A DNA stretch of 40,937 nucleotides. Source: Phycisphaerales bacterium. GTDB taxonomy: Bacteria; Planctomycetota; Phycisphaerae; Phycisphaerales; SM1A02. Position numbers and translations under genes: made by a program. The notes under the pieces are model-generated. The model was not told where the DNA came from. It made no database searches and saw nothing but the letters and a program-made list of their open reading frames with translations. Positions 23,160-35,618 of this stretch are shown in pieces. The stretch spans positions 65,166 to 106,102 of the forward strand of contig JAKVBX010000017.1 in NCBI GenBank assembly GCA_022446795.1, given 5' to 3'. Numbering within the stretch: the first letter of the stretch is position 1; each line of letters opens with the position of its first letter.

Positions 23160-23286
23160 CCCGCTTATCGGTCCAAGCGATATCTGCTCGAAGCTCGATG
23201 CCTGCCAGGGGCGTCACCCCCAAACCCGTGCTAGTCTGAAATGTCGTGTCTGCGAGTTGATGTCCTGTTCCACGACAGGGGGAGGC

Positions 23287-24363
23287 ATGGGTAAAGCCAA
23301 GAAGCATGCCGGAGTCCAGCGAAATCTGCTGGCGACGGAACTGGGTTGGTGGTCCGTCCTGTTGACGACGCTGCTGCTCGGTGCGCTGGTCTGCAACATC
23401 TTCGCGCTGATGTACCCGTTCCTGGAGTTCAGTGCGGCCTTTGCCGGCAAGGAACTCTACAGCATCCCCCATACCATCCAGTTGATGTGGAGCTACAAGC
23501 TCTACGCCGTGGCGATCCTGGTGGTGGCCTTCTCGTTGACGTTCCCCTTCGTGAAGCTCGGGATGATGATCATCATCCTCTGGTTCCCATGGCCCCGGTC
23601 CGGCCGACATCGGACGTTGATGGTGCTGCGTCACCTGGGACGCTGGTCCCTGCTGGACGTCTTCATCGCCCTCATCATCCTGGTCCTGGCTGATGACCAG
23701 ATCTTCATCGGGGCCAAGCCGAGGGTCGGCGTGGCGCTTTTCCTGATCGCGATCTGCACCAGCATGTTGACCTGCGAACTGATGGAGCACCTCAATCACG
23801 GCCAGGTCGTGCCGAAGGTGGATCTGCTGGGTGGTCGACGCACGCCCATCTACTGGGCGTCCGGTTGGACGTTCTGGTTGATGGTGCCGCTCCTGGTGGT
23901 CGCCCTCCTGTCGCTCCTGGCAGCGGTGGGACTCCCGTACTTCCAGATCAACGAGTTCCTGCTCCGTCACAACGCCTACAGCGTCATCAAGAGCATCACA
24001 GCCCTGAGTTCGGCCGGGGCCCCCGGCTTCGCCATCACCATGCTGGCCTTCCTGGTCGTCCTGCCCATCGCTCGGCTCCTGACCATGGCGATCCTGGGAC
24101 TCCTTCCCATGAACCGGCGGTGGCGTCGCGGGCTCGACATGTGGTCCAGCATCATCGGTGCCTGGTCCATGCTGGATGTGTTCGGCCTGGCGTTGTTGCT
24201 GTTCCTCACCGAGGGTGCTCGACTCGTCAAGTTCGAGATCCATACCGGCCTGTACATGATCATCGTCGCGGTCGGCATCTACTACCTCACCCTGTTCGTG
24301 GGGACGCTCGCCATTCGCCGGGCGATCAGTTCGGGTGAGAAGGTGGAATCGGAGACCTCGTGA
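23287..24363 (+). CDS. PqiA-like integral membrane protein, two PqiA domains
   Basis: 358 residues from ATG 23287. It has two related four-helix modules (about 15-155 and 190-345), as in paraquat-inducible protein A. The zinc-ribbon cysteines found in E. coli PqiA are absent. PqiA proteins work with MCE proteins (PqiB) in envelope lipid transport, but no MCE gene is visible here. The start is uncertain: GGGGGAGG almost touches ATG 23287, while an ATG at 23260 and TTG at 23257 would add 9 or 10 residues. A TAGTCT box (23232-23237) precedes it. The stop overlaps the next gene in a GTGA junction. Confidence 0.82.
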   Translation: MGKAKKHAGVQRNLLATELGWWSVLLTTLLLGALVCNIFALMYPFLEFSAAFAGKELYSIPHTIQLMWSYKLYAVAILVVAFSLTFPFVKLGMMIIILWFPWPRSGRHRTLMVLRHLGRWSLLDVFIALIILVLADDQIFIGAKPRVGVALFLIAICTSMLTCELMEHLNHGQVVPKVDLLGGRRTPIYWASGWTFWLMVPLLVVALLSLLAAVGLPYFQINEFLLRHNAYSVIKSITALSSAGAPGFAITMLAFLVVLPIARLLTMAILGLLPMNRRWRRGLDMWSSIIGAWSMLDVFGLALLLFLTEGARLVKFEIHTGLYMIIVAVGIYYLTLFVGTLAIRRAISSGEKVESETS

Positions 24364-29750: not shown

Positions 29751-29798
29751 CCGGGCGGTACCATGTCCGTCCCATTCACGGAGGCGGAAGGACCAACC

Positions 29799-30860
29799 AT
29801 GGAATGCGGTTTGATTGGATTGCAGGGCTCGGGGAAGACCACGCTCTTCCAGGCGTTGACGGCACATGCGGTCGAGGTGCAGGTGGGCTCGATGAAGCCG
29901 AACCTGGGCATTGCTGACATTCCCGATCCTCGCCTGGCTCGCATTGCCACCCATATCCCGACGCAGAAGATCGTTCCGGCCAACCTGCAGGTCGTCGACA
30001 TTCCCGGCGTTCCGGATGGTGGTGGTGCCGCGGCGCTCAATGCCGTCCTGTCGAGCATTCGCACGGTCGATGCCGTCTGCCAGGTAGTCCGCTGCTGGGA
30101 TGACCCGGGGCTCGGTGCCGCCGATCCGGGATCGCACATCGCCTCCCTGGAAACCGAACTGGTCCTGGCCGACCTCGTGGTGGCCGAGGGCGGTGTCGAC
30201 AAGGCCAAGCGGGCGGCTCGCAGTGGAGATCGTGACGCCAAGCAGCGACTCGAGGTCCTGGAAAAATCACACGCGATGCTGGGTGATGAGCAGCCGCTTC
30301 GCACCGGACAGTGGGATGAGTCGGAAGCGGCCCTGCTCAAGAGCTACGGCATGATCACGGCCAAGCCGATCATGTATGTCGCCAACGTGGGCGAGGACGG
30401 CGTGGCGGGCGAGTCCGCGGCGTCCATCGCCGTTGCCGAAGCCGCAGCGGCGCGCGGCGGCGTGTCCGTCACCTTGTGCGCCACGATCGAATCGGAGATT
30501 GCCGAACTGGATGAATCGGATCGCGGCGAGATGCTCGAATCGATGGGTATCGCCGAGCCGGCGCTGGGTGCGTTTGCCCGGGCGGCCAATGAACTGCTGG
30601 GCCTGAGTACCTTCTACACCGCGGGTGAGAAGGAAGTCCGGGCCTGGTCGATCGTCCAGGGCGCCACGGCGCCGGAAGCGGCGGGGGCCATCCACAGTGA
30701 CATCCAGCGTGGCTTCATCCGGGCCGAGTGCTATCACGTCGATGAGCTTGACGAATACAAGTCCGAGAAGGCCATCAAGGAAGCCGGCAAACTCCGCTCG
30801 GAGGGCAAGGGCTATACCATGCAGGATGGCGATGTCGTGCACTACCTGTTCAACGTGTGA
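29799..30860 (+). CDS. ychF: YchF/OLA1-type P-loop ATPase, divergent
   Basis: 353 residues, close to the usual 363. YchF is an Obg-family P-loop protein that prefers ATP and associates with ribosomes. The C-terminal TGS/DUF933 part is clear (YTAGEKEVRAWSI, then DIQRGFIRAE and MQDGDVVHYLFN), and the G4 position reads NVGE, the ATP-type N-x-x-E. The P-loop is GLQGSGKT rather than the normal GLPNVGKST and switch 2 reads DIPGVPDGG, so this is a divergent branch. ATG 29799 is used because GGAAGG lies upstream; an ATG at 29763 adds 12 residues. TACCAT (29758-29763) may be its -10. Confidence 0.85.
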   Translation: MECGLIGLQGSGKTTLFQALTAHAVEVQVGSMKPNLGIADIPDPRLARIATHIPTQKIVPANLQVVDIPGVPDGGGAAALNAVLSSIRTVDAVCQVVRCWDDPGLGAADPGSHIASLETELVLADLVVAEGGVDKAKRAARSGDRDAKQRLEVLEKSHAMLGDEQPLRTGQWDESEAALLKSYGMITAKPIMYVANVGEDGVAGESAASIAVAEAAAARGGVSVTLCATIESEIAELDESDRGEMLESMGIAEPALGAFARAANELLGLSTFYTAGEKEVRAWSIVQGATAPEAAGAIHSDIQRGFIRAECYHVDELDEYKSEKAIKEAGKLRSEGKGYTMQDGDVVHYLFNV

Positions 30861-30883
30861 CCACGTCGATGAGGAGTTGAGGC

Positions 30884-31963
30884 ATGAAGAAGATTCTCGA
30901 GGTACGCGGAGACCAGGCCCGGGACATCCTGGCCCTGCTCAAGTGCGTGGCCACGGCAGAAGACACCCTCGAACTCCACGAGATCCACCGCCAGACCCTG
31001 GAGGCCATTGCCCATCACCTGTTCCAGGCAGAGGTGGAGACCGATCGGCTGCAGGGCAGCATTGATGGGGCTGCTGAGACGGTCGAGGATCCCGAGTTGC
31101 GTCGGGAAGTCCTGAACATGGCGGGCATCCTGCCGTTCCTGGAGGAAGAGAACAAGGAACAGCGGATTGACGCCTTCGCGCACCTGGCCCGTGAATTCGG
31201 TTTCAGCAAGAAGTTCGCCAAGGAACTGCACGGCCTCTGTCACCACGCCATCATGGAACTCACGATCTGCATGCTGCGACCGGCCAGCGTGACGGCGAGC
31301 CGAAGTCTCGCGGGACTGACGCTCACGTTTGCGGAGAGCGCCATTCATGCTGATGGAAACAAGAAGACCCTGGAACGCTACCAGCGGTACGAGCAGATGG
31401 ATGACGGCATCTTCGGCAAGGTGCTCACGAAGTATTACCGTGACAACGACTTTGACCTGCCGGGAACGCCGCATGCGCCGTTTTCCAATGGACTGATGTA
31501 CCACGACATGCACCATGTCGTGCAGGGCTATCCGACCACGCCACTGGGTGAGACCTGCGTGCTGGCCTTCGATGGAGCGCTCGTCGACCAGGACCTCGGC
31601 AAGACCCTGATCGCCTACGTGGCCCAGTTCCAGGTCGGACTGCTGTTCGACAGCACGCTTCCCCTGTGGAAGAACCAGTTCAAGCCGGACATCGTGATGA
31701 GCGCCTACGAACGCGGCGGTCTCTGCAATACCAACTTCGTGGCGCCGGGATTCGACTGGTCCGAACTGCTGGAAAGACCACTGGACGAGGTCCGGGCGGG
31801 ATTCAACATCCCGCTGGAGGGCGCGATCGTCAAGGAACCGGGCGACCTCTGGTGCGGAGACATGGGGCTGGTCGGCCAGCGCAACAGCGAGGACATGGTC
31901 CAGCAGAAGATGAGATGGCTTCAGAAGGTCTTCACCAAGTTGAATGTCAAGCATGCTGAATAA
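30884..31963 (+). CDS. TerB-like helical domain fused to a Coq4-like domain
   Basis: 359 residues, no signal peptide. Residues about 10-135 are all-helical with repeated acidic stretches and resemble the TerB tellurite-resistance fold. Residues about 160-335 resemble Coq4: the metal motif HDxxHx11E is exact (His207, Asp208, His211, Glu223), in YHDMHHVVQGYPTTPLGE, and the end (DWSELLERPLDEVRAGFNIP) matches the Coq4 C-terminal helix. Coq4 acts in ubiquinone synthesis, where it oxidatively removes the C1 carboxyl group. No ubi or men genes are near. GAGGAGTTGAGGC precedes the ATG. The gene is 23 bp after ychF and probably cotranscribed. The TerB assignment is weaker than the Coq4 one. Confidence 0.7.
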   Translation: MKKILEVRGDQARDILALLKCVATAEDTLELHEIHRQTLEAIAHHLFQAEVETDRLQGSIDGAAETVEDPELRREVLNMAGILPFLEEENKEQRIDAFAHLAREFGFSKKFAKELHGLCHHAIMELTICMLRPASVTASRSLAGLTLTFAESAIHADGNKKTLERYQRYEQMDDGIFGKVLTKYYRDNDFDLPGTPHAPFSNGLMYHDMHHVVQGYPTTPLGETCVLAFDGALVDQDLGKTLIAYVAQFQVGLLFDSTLPLWKNQFKPDIVMSAYERGGLCNTNFVAPGFDWSELLERPLDEVRAGFNIPLEGAIVKEPGDLWCGDMGLVGQRNSEDMVQQKMRWLQKVFTKLNVKHAE

Positions 31964-32099: not shown

Positions 32100-34892
32100 A
32101 TGCGTATGAAGCTCATTGCCATCTTGAGCGTCCTGCTGGTGGACTTCAGCGGGAGTGAATCCAGGGCCCAGGCACAGGATGACCCGGTCCAGGACAAGCC
32201 GGTTCAGTCCCAGCCAGTCGATCCGGAGCAGCGGAAGTCCAGCTTCGATCAACTTAAAAAGTTGTGCGAGAATCCACGAACGACGGCAGCTCAGGTGAAG
32301 GCCTTGATCCAGGATGGGGCTGATGTCAACGCGCAGGACAATGTCCTGGCATATACACCATTGCATACCGTCGTTGATATGTATGGCCAGCCCGATGTCA
32401 TCATGGCACTTCTGGAGTCTGGTGCGGATGTCTCCTTGCGTGATGATGATGGGTTCACACCGTTGGGCCTGGCCGTGCAGAACTGGAGAGTGCTTCAAGA
32501 GCGGCAGCCGGAAGTCGTCGCCCTGTTGCTCAAGGCGGGGGCCGATCCGAATGGATATGAAGGATCGGAGCATTACTCGCCGCTGAGCCTTGCTGTCGGG
32601 CAATGTTCGCCCGAGACCATCTCGGTGTTGATCAAAGCGGGCGCTGATGTCGAGGCTCGCCGCGGAGAAACCTATACATCCACGCCGCTTGGGGTCGCCA
32701 TTCAATTCAACCGGGACCCCGAGGCCACCCGTTTGTTGATTCAGGCCGGTGTCGATGTGAATCGACGGTGTGTTGTCCACTACACGCCGCTGATGTTGGC
32801 GTGTGAGACTTCAAACCCCGAGATCGTGACGCTTCTGCTCCAGGCCGGGGCCAACGTGAATGCCAGGGACACGACTGGCCAGACCGCCCTGGACTACGCC
32901 CAGGAGAACAGGAAGCTCGCCGGGTCCCCGGTGCTCAGGCAACTGGAGGCAGCGACCAACTTACGGGCCTCAAACCATGGATTGAGGTCGAGTTCGGTTC
33001 CAGCAGCCCACCGTGGCGCGACGCAGAAGTTGCTGGACGCGTGCCGGGATCCGAAGACCACGGTTGCTCACATCCATCTGTTGATCGAGGAGGGGGCCCT
33101 GGTCTCGGGTCGGGACGAGGCCGGTCGGACGCCCTTGATGCTGGCTGCAGCCAGCCAGGCTGACCCCGAAGTCGTGGCCGCGATCCTCGAAGCGGGCGCG
33201 AATGTTGCGACCCAGGATGACTATGACCGGACGGCCCTGATGTTCGCGGCGGAGAAGAACACCAACCCATTCGTGTTGTCCGCGCTGCTTGAAGCCGGTT
33301 CCGATGTCGACCACAGGACGTTCACCACCTATCCCGAGTGGAGCACGGGTTGGACCCCATTGATGCTGGCGGCACGAAGCAACGCCAGTCCCGAGGTTGT
33401 TTCGATGCTTGTCGAGGCGGGTGGCGATCTCTCGGCTCGGGACCGTGAGGGCTTCAATGCGCTGATGGTGGCGGCTCGAAGCAACACCAGTCCCACCGTC
33501 GTATCTGCACTCCTGGAGGCGGGCGCAGACATTGACGCTCGGAACGAGAACGGCAGGACCGCACTGATGGACGCTGTGGATTGGAACCCCAATCACCAGG
33601 TGGTGTCGGTCCTGCTCGATGCGGGCGCCCAGGTCGACGCGACTGATGACAACGGCAAGACCTCGCTGATGATCGCACCCGGCAGGAACGCCAGTCACGA
33701 CATGCTCACGCTCCTGCTCGATGCCAATGCAGATGTCGACGCGACGGACAAGTACAGCAGGACAGCCCTGACCTACGCGGCAGAACGTGACCCCAATCCC
33801 GAGGTCCTGGTGTTGTTGCTCAAGGCTGGTGCGGATGTGAATGTCACGCCTCGAGTGGGTGGAGCCCCGCTGTACTACGCCGCAGCCAACCGAAACAGTT
33901 CACAACTCGTGCCGGTGCTGCTTGAGGCTGGTGCGATGGTCCACGCAAGGGGGGGGGCGGCTGGTCGAACACCGTTGATGCAGGCCGTGTCAGCTCGTCA
34001 GCCTGATCCAGCAACGGTGTCGCTGCTGCTCAATGCTGGTGCCGACATCCATGCCGTTGACGACAAGAGGTCGACACCGCTTCATCATGCAGCGGATCGC
34101 GGTGACCGGGATGTCGTCACGCTGCTGCTCAAGGCCGGTGCCGATGCCAATGCAACGGATGAAGATGACATGACGGTATTGCACCGGGCTGCACGTGGCT
34201 GGTGGGGAGACTCCGATGGCGACCTGGCGTCCGCTGATCCCGAGGTTATTGCCGCCCTGCTTGAAGCCGGGGCGGATGTCCATGCGCGGGCTGTGGTTGA
34301 TTGGACTCCGTTGATGTTGGCCGCCGGGACGCGGGACAGTTCCGCCGTGGTCGAGTTGCTGCTGGAAGCTGGTGCAGACGTCAATGACAGGGATGCCAAC
34401 CAGCAGACCGCCTTGCACGAGGCGGCGTCGAGCGATCCCAGTACGGTGGCACTGCTCCTGGAGCGTGGCGTCGATGTCGACGCGGCGGATGACAACGGAT
34501 GGACGCCGTTGATGGGTGCCTTGCAACAACGCAATCCCGAGGCCGTGCGTCTACTACTTGCGGCCGGTGCTGATGTGAACGCGACGAACAGCACTGGTGA
34601 TACGCCATTGCTGGTGGTTGCGGGTCGGGACGGCAGCCCGGCGATGGTTCCACTCCTGCGGAAGGCTGGTGCTGATGTGAACGCCATGAACAGGTATGGC
34701 CGGACGGCGCTGATCTCCGCAACCATGACCGAGGATCCGGCGCCCGCCATGGTGCTGGCCCTGCTCAAGGCCGGGGCCGACCCCAGCATGCAGGACAAGC
34801 AGGGAAAAACCGCCCTGGACTACGCTCGGGAGAACAGGGAACTGGTGGGAACCGAGGCGATCCGGAACCTAGAGGCGGCAAGCCGGCCCTAG
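32100..34892 (+). CDS. Large exported ankyrin-repeat protein
   Basis: 930 residues. A signal peptide (about 1-25) and a charged linker precede about 20 ankyrin repeats (T-P-L-M-x-A-A pattern plus V-x-x-L-L-x-A-G-A-D-V-x-A-x-D). The repeats form two unequal modules. Each opens with a similar helix (KKLCENPRTTAAQVKALI near 53; KLLDACRDPKTTVAHIHLLI near 310) and closes with DYAxENRxL...LEAA (near 265 and 905), so an ancestral array was duplicated and the second expanded. A G9 tract at 33949-33957 falls in one loop (HARGGAAGRTPL), making that repeat one residue long. Export suggests a periplasmic or surface binding scaffold; the target is unknown. GGAG lies 8 nt before the ATG. Confidence 0.9.
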   Translation: MRMKLIAILSVLLVDFSGSESRAQAQDDPVQDKPVQSQPVDPEQRKSSFDQLKKLCENPRTTAAQVKALIQDGADVNAQDNVLAYTPLHTVVDMYGQPDVIMALLESGADVSLRDDDGFTPLGLAVQNWRVLQERQPEVVALLLKAGADPNGYEGSEHYSPLSLAVGQCSPETISVLIKAGADVEARRGETYTSTPLGVAIQFNRDPEATRLLIQAGVDVNRRCVVHYTPLMLACETSNPEIVTLLLQAGANVNARDTTGQTALDYAQENRKLAGSPVLRQLEAATNLRASNHGLRSSSVPAAHRGATQKLLDACRDPKTTVAHIHLLIEEGALVSGRDEAGRTPLMLAAASQADPEVVAAILEAGANVATQDDYDRTALMFAAEKNTNPFVLSALLEAGSDVDHRTFTTYPEWSTGWTPLMLAARSNASPEVVSMLVEAGGDLSARDREGFNALMVAARSNTSPTVVSALLEAGADIDARNENGRTALMDAVDWNPNHQVVSVLLDAGAQVDATDDNGKTSLMIAPGRNASHDMLTLLLDANADVDATDKYSRTALTYAAERDPNPEVLVLLLKAGADVNVTPRVGGAPLYYAAANRNSSQLVPVLLEAGAMVHARGGAAGRTPLMQAVSARQPDPATVSLLLNAGADIHAVDDKRSTPLHHAADRGDRDVVTLLLKAGADANATDEDDMTVLHRAARGWWGDSDGDLASADPEVIAALLEAGADVHARAVVDWTPLMLAAGTRDSSAVVELLLEAGADVNDRDANQQTALHEAASSDPSTVALLLERGVDVDAADDNGWTPLMGALQQRNPEAVRLLLAAGADVNATNSTGDTPLLVVAGRDGSPAMVPLLRKAGADVNAMNRYGRTALISATMTEDPAPAMVLALLKAGADPSMQDKQGKTALDYARENRELVGTEAIRNLEAASRP
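33949..33957 (+). repeat. G9 homopolymer inside the ankyrin gene
   Basis: Nine consecutive G. Loss or gain of one base would shift the frame about two thirds of the way through the gene. It could be a phase-variation tract or a site prone to sequencing error. Confidence 0.9.
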
Positions 34893-34966: not shown

Positions 34967-35218
34967 ATGTCCGACAAGCGGCTGTAGATCATCGCCTTTG
35001 CCATCACTATCTGCATGGGACTCGCGTGTACTCTCGGTGAGTTCCTGTGCGTAGACTGGCTGCTGCTCTGGGTACAGGGGATCTGGATGATTGGTAGCCT
35101 GATCTGCAATGTCATTCGATATGGTTTCTTGAAATGGCTACGTGAAGAGTCATCGAAACGGCGGCAAGGAGCGAAGCATGCAGTACACCACGACCATCGA
35201 GATCGATCAGCCCCGTGA
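34967..35218 (+). pseudogene. Small two-helix membrane protein gene interrupted by TAG at codon 7
   Basis: AGGAGG sits 6 nt before ATG 34967, an ideal start, but the frame reads MSDKRL then TAG (34985-34987) and continues openly to 35218 (83 codons counting the amber). The continuation is clearly membrane-like, with two hydrophobic stretches (IIAFAITICMGLACTLGEF and WLLLWVQGIWMIGSLIC) and a basic tail (KWLREESSKRRQ). CAG to TAG is the simplest cause. Either the gene is dead, the base is an error, or translation restarts at ATG 35015, which has no ribosome site. The 3' part overlaps the SRPBCC gene by 41 bp. The rest of the 285 bp before 35178 holds nothing else. Confidence 0.6.
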
Positions 35219-35618
35219 GCGTGTCATTGAGTTGATGCTGGACCCCGGGAACAGCAGCCAGTGGCAGCCGACGCTGATGAAGGCCGAGCGACTGGAGGGC
35301 GATCCGGGGCAGGAGGGCTCGCAGGTACGTCTTGTCCATAAGATGGGTGGGCGGGAGATCGAGATGATCGAGACGATTGTCTCGCTGAACCTGCCGGACT
35401 CCTTCGAGGCCAGCTACGAGGGCAAGGGCGTCTTCAACCTGAATGTCAATCGGTTCGAGGCCCTGGATGGTGGACGCACCCGCTGGGAACTGCACACGGC
35501 GTTCCGTTTCACCGGCCTGATGCGCCTGATCGGCAGGTTGTTCTCGGGCATGTTCAAGAAACAGACCGGGTCAATCATGAAGTCATTCAAGGATTTCGCC
35601 GAGTCCGTCGAGGCCTGA
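35178..35618 (+). CDS. SRPBCC superfamily protein (START/Bet v1-like fold)
   Basis: 146 residues. The pattern of an N-terminal strand (YTTTIEIDQPRERVIELML), a W-x-P-T-L segment, paired long strands and a C-terminal helix (FKDFAESVEA) is the SRPBCC hydrophobic-pocket fold. Such proteins bind lipids or polyketides or act as cyclases; the ligand here is not evident. The ATG at 35178 has AGGAG 6 nt upstream. It lies 4 bp from the stop of the convergent TPR gene. Confidence 0.85.
   Translation: MQYTTTIEIDQPRERVIELMLDPGNSSQWQPTLMKAERLEGDPGQEGSQVRLVHKMGGREIEMIETIVSLNLPDSFEASYEGKGVFNLNVNRFEALDGGRTRWELHTAFRFTGLMRLIGRLFSGMFKKQTGSIMKSFKDFAESVEA

Follow-up and report, generated by a model that had tools for sequence, protein, structure and literature searches.

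What kind of protein carries the metal motif of Coq4 behind a TerB-like helical front, and is the ychF gene just upstream of it a true partner? Both questions were raised by one locus in a 40,937-nucleotide stretch of a contig from a Phycisphaerales bacterium (JAKVBX010000017.1, positions 65,166 to 106,102; hereafter the window), whose genome comprises 3.54 Mb in 78 contigs. An initial annotation had pointed to a 359-aa ORF with His207, Asp208, His211 and Glu223 spaced as in Coq4, and had proposed that its product forms a unit with a divergent YchF encoded 23 bp upstream. The ORF was present as described, with the motif reading HDMHH-x11-E at residues 207-223, and the distance was also correct, with ychF ending at 30860 and the TerB-Coq4 gene starting at 30884. 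The observation that opened the analysis was confirmed as real. The parts of the locus are as follows.

29763..30860, + strand: ychF, divergent type (TIGR00092, PF06071)
30861..30883, + strand: 23-bp gap between ychF and TerB-Coq4, with GAGGAG at -13 to -8 relative to the ATG
30884..31963, + strand: gene of the TerB-Coq4 protein, 359 aa (ORF call; full-length relatives)
30884..31303, + strand: TerB-like helical domain, residues 1-140 (fold match to 2OU3; Pfam TerB matches in relatives)
31370..31819, + strand: Coq4-like, putatively catalytic half, about residues 163-312 (hhalign against five true Coq4 proteins; 3MSQ, 6E12)
31502..31552, + strand: HDxxH-x11-E metal motif, residues 207-223 (kept in 47/47 rows of alignment A4, described below)
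31829..31960, + strand: C-terminal tail with WCG (W323 C324 G325) (A4 alignment)

The window has 37 called genes. Of these, 22 were tested for quinone-pathway membership, and for these 22 the claim held that the window contains no further gene of that pathway. In a family scan of 20 window proteins at E <= 1e-5, four had no match at all; to our knowledge, none of the families matched by the scanned proteins at this threshold is a quinone-pathway family. An ankyrin-repeat protein of 930 aa (32100-34892) is encoded 136 bp downstream of TerB-Coq4 on the same strand, and a small Polyketide_cyc2 protein of 158 aa (35142-35618) about 3.2 kb downstream. A PqiA-like gene (23260-24360) lies about 6.5 kb upstream; a relative of it adjoins TerB-Coq4 in the Myxococcota-group genome L100 (282-1301), which could be chance.

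Relatives and alignments

The seven relatives that could be named came from Phycisphaerae or Phycisphaerales (six) and Myxococcota (one, L004), all of them metagenome assemblies. The phylum of the L004 genome, labelled as in its database entry, is referred to here as the Myxococcota group. Of the 235 genomes of this group that were searched, 83 had a match; 44 rows, from 23 genomes, reached E <= 1e-25. We took 40 of these 44 rows, a simple gene caller recovered 37 of them, and 36 entered alignment A4, which has 47 rows in all (8 Phycisphaerae, 36 Myxococcota-group, 3 other Planctomycetota). Four relatives stayed outside A4, three missed by the gene caller (L081, L084 and L098) and one that had lost the motif (L106). 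Most A4 sequences are 15-27% identical to the window protein. The smaller alignment A1 holds the window protein and its eight closest relatives (nine rows). Five true Coq4 proteins (A3) were chosen by their motif from seven loci (L054-L060), a choice that favours agreement at the motif and not elsewhere; these shorter proteins from the Myxococcota-group search matched Pfam Coq4 with E values of 3.4e-23 to 4.9e-38.

The C-terminal half is related to Coq4

The window protein alone scored 13.3 bits against Pfam Coq4 (PF05019; E 0.05), below the gathering score of 22.9 bits, and L004, the closest Myxococcota-group relative, reached 21.5 bits. Pfam Coq4 was matched at E <= 0.01 by 30 of the 47 A4 members (best 9.5e-6) and, with E values up to 10 allowed, by all nine members of A1 (best 1.6e-4). 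When A4 was compared with the five true Coq4 proteins by hhalign, the motifs fell in register at a probability of 99.3% (E 6.2e-21); A1 gave 98.5% (E 1.9e-15), and the C-terminal half of A4 against the C-terminal half of Coq4 gave 99.6% (E 1e-23). The Coq4 half is accepted in spite of the low score of the single protein because the alignment of its relatives matches true Coq4.

Searches of the PDB placed the A4 profile first with 3MSQ (E 4.3e-9), entered as a 'putative ubiquinone biosynthesis protein', and then with 6E12 (E 8.5e-9), the structure of Alr8543, which is described as a COQ4 homologue (PMC9774615). With the A1 profile nothing was significant, 3MSQ being third (E 0.52) under two rows of an unrelated protein, and the window sequence alone found no relative in the PDB. 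A model of the full protein built from nine sequences had a mean pLDDT of 53, and its first Foldseek row was 6E12 at E 0.11, which made it too weak to judge the Coq4 half. A second model, of residues 140-359 alone, had a mean pLDDT of 58; its first three Foldseek rows were chains of 6E12 and 3MSQ (best E 1.6e-3), and VIA-align gave Z scores of 5.9 and 4.5 for chains of these structures against 3.1 for the next row. Neither low-confidence model yielded a Foldseek row at E 0.001 or better. Such scores are low, as is the confidence of the model, and do no more than concur with the sequence comparisons. The Coq4-like end that had been claimed for the protein is thus borne out by the A4 and A1 profile comparisons, with weaker support from the fold and with the single protein under the Pfam cut-off.

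Could the motif have arisen by chance in an unrelated helical protein? The E value of 0.05 for the single protein would allow it, and the motif on its own is weak evidence, as 513 of 200,000 shuffles of the window protein contained it. The profile comparison with true Coq4 stands against this reading, as do the PDB profile and fold searches that put Coq4 structures first for this half; we take chance as refuted by them and leave it practically no weight. The motif is more than chance also because its four residues are kept in all 47 A4 members and in three further relatives (L081, L084 and L098).

Shorter Coq4-like proteins of roughly 190 aa, with uncertain starts and a hydrophobic C-terminal end, were seen in other Planctomycetota (L018-L022). 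Their motif is HDLHH-x11-E, and the two that were scanned (L018 and L019) stayed under the Pfam Coq4 cut-off.

The N-terminal half is TerB-like

Pfam TerB (PF05099, gathering score 24.4 bits) did not match the window protein. Among its relatives, 14 of the 47 A4 members matched at E <= 0.01 (best E 9.4e-11), and L015 scored 39.5 bits, above the cut-off. The A4 profile found the TerB structure 2OU3 (COG3793) with E 0.031. Residues 6-140 of the first model aligned to 2OU3 with a Z score of 11.0 (131 residues at 4.3 A), followed by 2H5N (PG1108, function unknown) with 8.0 and by the next row at 4.5; Z scores of helical bundles can be high by chance, and the block means of pLDDT were 50-91 for residues 1-120 and 27-33 for residues 121-140. 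The TerB-like helical front named in the initial annotation is therefore seen in the Pfam matches of the relatives and, more weakly, in the predicted fold, and a TerB-like N-terminal domain is well supported by these comparisons. The profile check that had been suggested for each half gave a divided answer: the window protein alone is under both Pfam cut-offs, the alignment of its relatives matches Coq4, and 14 of the 47 members match TerB.

The N-terminal half of A4 did not match the N-terminal half of Coq4 (hhalign against five Coq4 rows, probability 0.1%). Since the N-terminal halves do not match and the C-terminal halves do, the TerB domain takes the position that the N-terminal helices occupy in Coq4 itself.

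The metal motif is nearly invariant

Alignment A4 has seven invariant columns (G194, H207, D208, H211, E223, F229 and G278), and four of the seven are the residues of the motif. With the three relatives outside A4 that keep it, the motif is intact in 50 of the 51 members examined. The exception is L106 (4931-6319), in which the first His and the Glu are replaced; L106 is possibly a non-catalytic TerB-Coq4 paralogue. In Alr8543 the corresponding residues H120, D121, H124 and E136 are reported as Mg ligands, and the structure contains oleate and Mg (PMC9774615).

A protein of this kind might also be a non-catalytic scaffold or lipid carrier, its Coq4 half only binding lipid and metal and its TerB half assembling a membrane-bound complex. 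According to PMC12938788, COQ4 was originally considered a structural component of the CoQ complex; the TerB-like domain could serve for docking, and L106 lacks the intact motif. We consider a scaffold unlikely, given that the four metal residues are among only seven invariant columns in 47 mostly 15-27% identical sequences, a near-invariance that suits catalysis better than scaffolding. In addition, no partner gene was common to more than 3 of 40 Myxococcota-group loci among the 25 largest clusters of neighbours listed. The commonest Pfam family there accounted for 3 of 67 flanking proteins (five further listed proteins left out), and outside Phycisphaerae no conserved neighbour at the loci surveyed pointed to a pathway.

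Distribution and likely transfer

TerB-Coq4 has a patchy distribution and is open to loss. In the family of the window, 20 of 181 genomes had a match; 19 of them carry an intact gene, and G137 has a remnant (L012, about 1486-1622) in which roughly the final 37 codons persist immediately after a long, unrelated ORF. Sampling the class gave matches in 5 of 298 genomes, the window's genome and the G137 remnant included, and a search of the phylum in 12 of 392, among them the distant full-length relatives L014 and L015. In the tree, the eight Phycisphaerae rows formed one clade (97/93) with Myxococcota L073 as its sister (99/98), and five more Myxococcota-group rows stood next to Phycisphaerae and L073; the root was placed by midpoint only. 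This topology suggests that the gene was likely transferred between the Myxococcota group and Phycisphaerae, most simply into Phycisphaerae. The WCG tail was found in the eight Phycisphaerae rows and in the Myxococcota-group rows L073-L077 and in no other A4 row (L078 is incomplete).

Viral contigs searched with one Myxococcota-group member held no relative. A plasmid search returned one record only, a Coq4 family protein of the Sphingobium plasmid pF2. For 'Coq4 family protein', for Coq4 in Myxococcota and for TerB together with 'Coq4-like' we found no literature among open-licence papers. One apparent hit for TerB and Coq4 was rejected, as the letters occurred by chance in 'terbinafine'.

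The quinone setting of the carriers

COQ7 was not found in the window's genome. A PF05019 search of the same genome found no Coq4, a search that also misses TerB-Coq4 and is blind to divergent members. The carriers number 42 (19 Phycisphaerae and 23 Myxococcota-group), and UbiG was above its cut-off in one of them, the Myxococcota-group genome G865, and not in the window's genome; weaker UbiG matches, presumably other methyltransferases, occurred in 42 of 42. Of 14 genomes that served as controls, not named as such, two were above the UbiG cut-off. By these two markers, a ubiquinone pathway was not recovered in the window's genome. The window's genome did contain MqnC- and MqnE-like genes at 402 and 420 bits, slightly under the cut-offs of 428 and 435, so that there are indications of a futalosine route to menaquinone alongside the absence of the tested ubiquinone markers. 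As far as the markers tell, the Coq4 half would be at work outside ubiquinone synthesis.

The MqnC- and MqnE-like proteins raise the alternative that TerB-Coq4 acts in menaquinone synthesis itself, as a substitute for the decarboxylase or for the enzyme of another late futalosine step. COQ4 has been linked to decarboxylation of prenylated hydroxybenzoate, according to PMC12938788, which would suit such a role. We give the menaquinone reading little chance, since any trace of TerB-Coq4 is confined to 20 of 181 family genomes and a UbiD homologue is present over the cut-off in the window's genome and in two carriers of the same genus. Two genomes of that genus without TerB-Coq4 differed, G1020 having a UbiD homologue and G1019 no match.

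ychF is linked to the gene within one family

In the family of the window, ychF lies upstream on the same strand at 14 of the 19 intact loci, so the ychF-tied gene order anticipated from a single locus was recovered in the neighbour survey. The gap is short at eight loci from four genera (18, 18, 18, 23, 34, 44, 56 and 85 bp) and measures 482-1637 bp at six loci, all of one genus. Elsewhere in the genome and unlinked, ychF was found in three of the 19 (G182, G1021 and G924). Two further loci count neither as linked nor as unlinked: G1024, in which the contig breaks off 0.7 kb upstream of TerB-Coq4 and a ychF was not found, and G255, in which ychF stops 340 bp short of one contig end and TerB-Coq4 begins 287 bp into another contig, the two ends having no overlap. 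At the short-gap loci TerB-Coq4 is probably co-transcribed with ychF. When 12-14 kb of L134-L136 was compared with the window, ychF and TerB-Coq4 were all that matched its ORFs, which indicates that the pair outlives its surroundings. The link to ychF is real within one Phycisphaerae family. At the Myxococcota-group loci (L028-L060 and the 40-locus neighbour clustering) no ychF was seen, and the YchF cluster of neighbours consisted of the window, L001-L003, L006 and L007 only; the YchF partner is therefore not general.

The window YchF scored 301.8 bits against TIGR00092, above the equivalog cut-off of 279.2, and matched PF06071 at 6.1e-35. Its gene was called from the first ATG (29763), and the likelier start is the ATG of MECGLIG (29799). 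The protein has the P-loop GLQGSGKTT and shortened switch regions and lacks the NYPFCTIEPN stretch. It is 53-54% identical to the canonical YchF encoded before TerB-Coq4 in L002, L003, L006 and L007; those four proteins share 85-96% identity. Six genomes that were checked had one full-length YchF match each. The divergent YchF is the sole full-length match of the window's genome, as it is in L118, L134, L135 and L136.

Across the family the divergent type is common; it was represented by 36 full-length rows (at least 60% identity and <1065 bp), and the 36 genomes comprised 30 without a TerB-Coq4 match, five with an intact gene and one with the remnant. Two genomes of the window's own genus have the divergent ychF and no TerB-Coq4. 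Conversely, the 18 genomes with both genes had 13 canonical and five divergent YchF proteins. G255, G924 and G1021 were typed as canonical from the length of their YchF and its 55-56% identity to that of the window, G924 also from 86% identity to a canonical one. The divergent YchF type is incidental to TerB-Coq4, and we dropped it as part of a unit. Of the pair put forward in the initial annotation, the link to ychF extends beyond one genome, a place for the divergent YchF in the unit is not supported, and no result pointed to a sensing role. In genus g477, a divergent (G972) and a canonical (G973) ychF both lie directly before TerB-Coq4, as if one had been replaced in place.

A stress-response pair, in which YchF and the TerB-Coq4 protein work together, would draw on the upstream position of ychF at 14 of 19 loci with 18-85 bp in eight, on the pair as the sole thing common to L134-L136 and the window ORFs, and on the ties of YchF to stress responses described in PMC8779481. 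Joint action of this kind is nonetheless rather improbable: the genes are unlinked in three genomes and widely spaced at six loci, both YchF types occur, L028-L060 have no ychF, and shared inheritance of a single insertion behind ychF can account for some of the linkage.

Proposed activity

Our preferred reading, which we hold with about even confidence, is that the TerB-Coq4 protein is a metalloenzyme in which a TerB-type domain is joined to a Coq4 catalytic half, carries out lipid chemistry outside ubiquinone synthesis and is usually encoded behind ychF in one Phycisphaerae family. Within it, the domain assignments are well supported and the reaction is what we infer. The Coq4 half would coordinate a divalent metal beside a hydrophobic pocket and may modify an isoprenoid or acyl-tailed lipid, probably decarboxylating or hydroxylating a quinone-like head group in the manner of Coq4, and the TerB domain might hold the Coq4 half at the membrane or to a partner. 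By homology with COQ4, which in human cells is tied to the decarboxylation mentioned above (PMC12938788), the likeliest activity is a metal-dependent reaction at the head group of a tailed lipid. Around the Coq4 family protein of Sphingobium pF2 the gene row contains a P450, a 2Fe-2S protein, acyl-CoA dehydrogenases and an acyl-CoA synthetase, which suggests that bacterial Coq4 members need not serve quinone synthesis.

A broader picture, which we offer tentatively and regard as possible although doubtful, is that of a paralogue-rich TerB-Coq4 family centred on Myxococcota, its Coq4 site acting on non-ubiquinone isoprenoid or quinone-like lipids. One branch would have passed to Phycisphaerae and settled behind ychF, where its expression with ychF might tie a lipid redox step to translation control by YchF under stress.

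Comparison with known systems

COQ4 was at first assigned a structural role; more recently it has been connected with a reaction in the synthesis of ubiquinone, as described in PMC9774615 and PMC12938788. Like Coq4 (PF05019; 6E12, 3MSQ), the TerB-Coq4 protein has a C-terminal half of about 150 residues with HDxxH-x11-E in register and a PLxxVR-like stretch near its end. Unlike Coq4, it scores below the Pfam cut-off and has a TerB domain where the N-terminal helical half of Coq4 is not recognisable, and its setting differs in that the window's genome has neither COQ7 nor UbiG over the cut-off. It resembles TerB (PF05099; 2OU3) in the helical domain of residues 6-140, with Pfam TerB matched in 14 of 47 members, and differs in the fusion to a Coq4 half and in the window protein itself having no TerB match. 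The Coq4 family protein of pF2 is 37% identical over residues 207-309, the motif region included, and no quinone gene is among the surrounding annotated features shown; it differs in being encoded by a 798-bp CDS, in matching only the Coq4 half and in its catabolic-looking gene row. The window YchF agrees with canonical YchF in exceeding the TIGR00092 cut-off, and differs in its P-loop, its shortened switch regions and its identity of 53-54%.

Judged from its sequence relationships, TerB-Coq4 is best read as an undescribed two-part protein family that is related to Coq4 and stands outside Coq4 proper. Through it TerB would gain an enzyme-like partner domain, and a family with almost no tested ubiquinone marker offers a simpler place in which to ask about the chemistry and the substrates of the Coq4 site.
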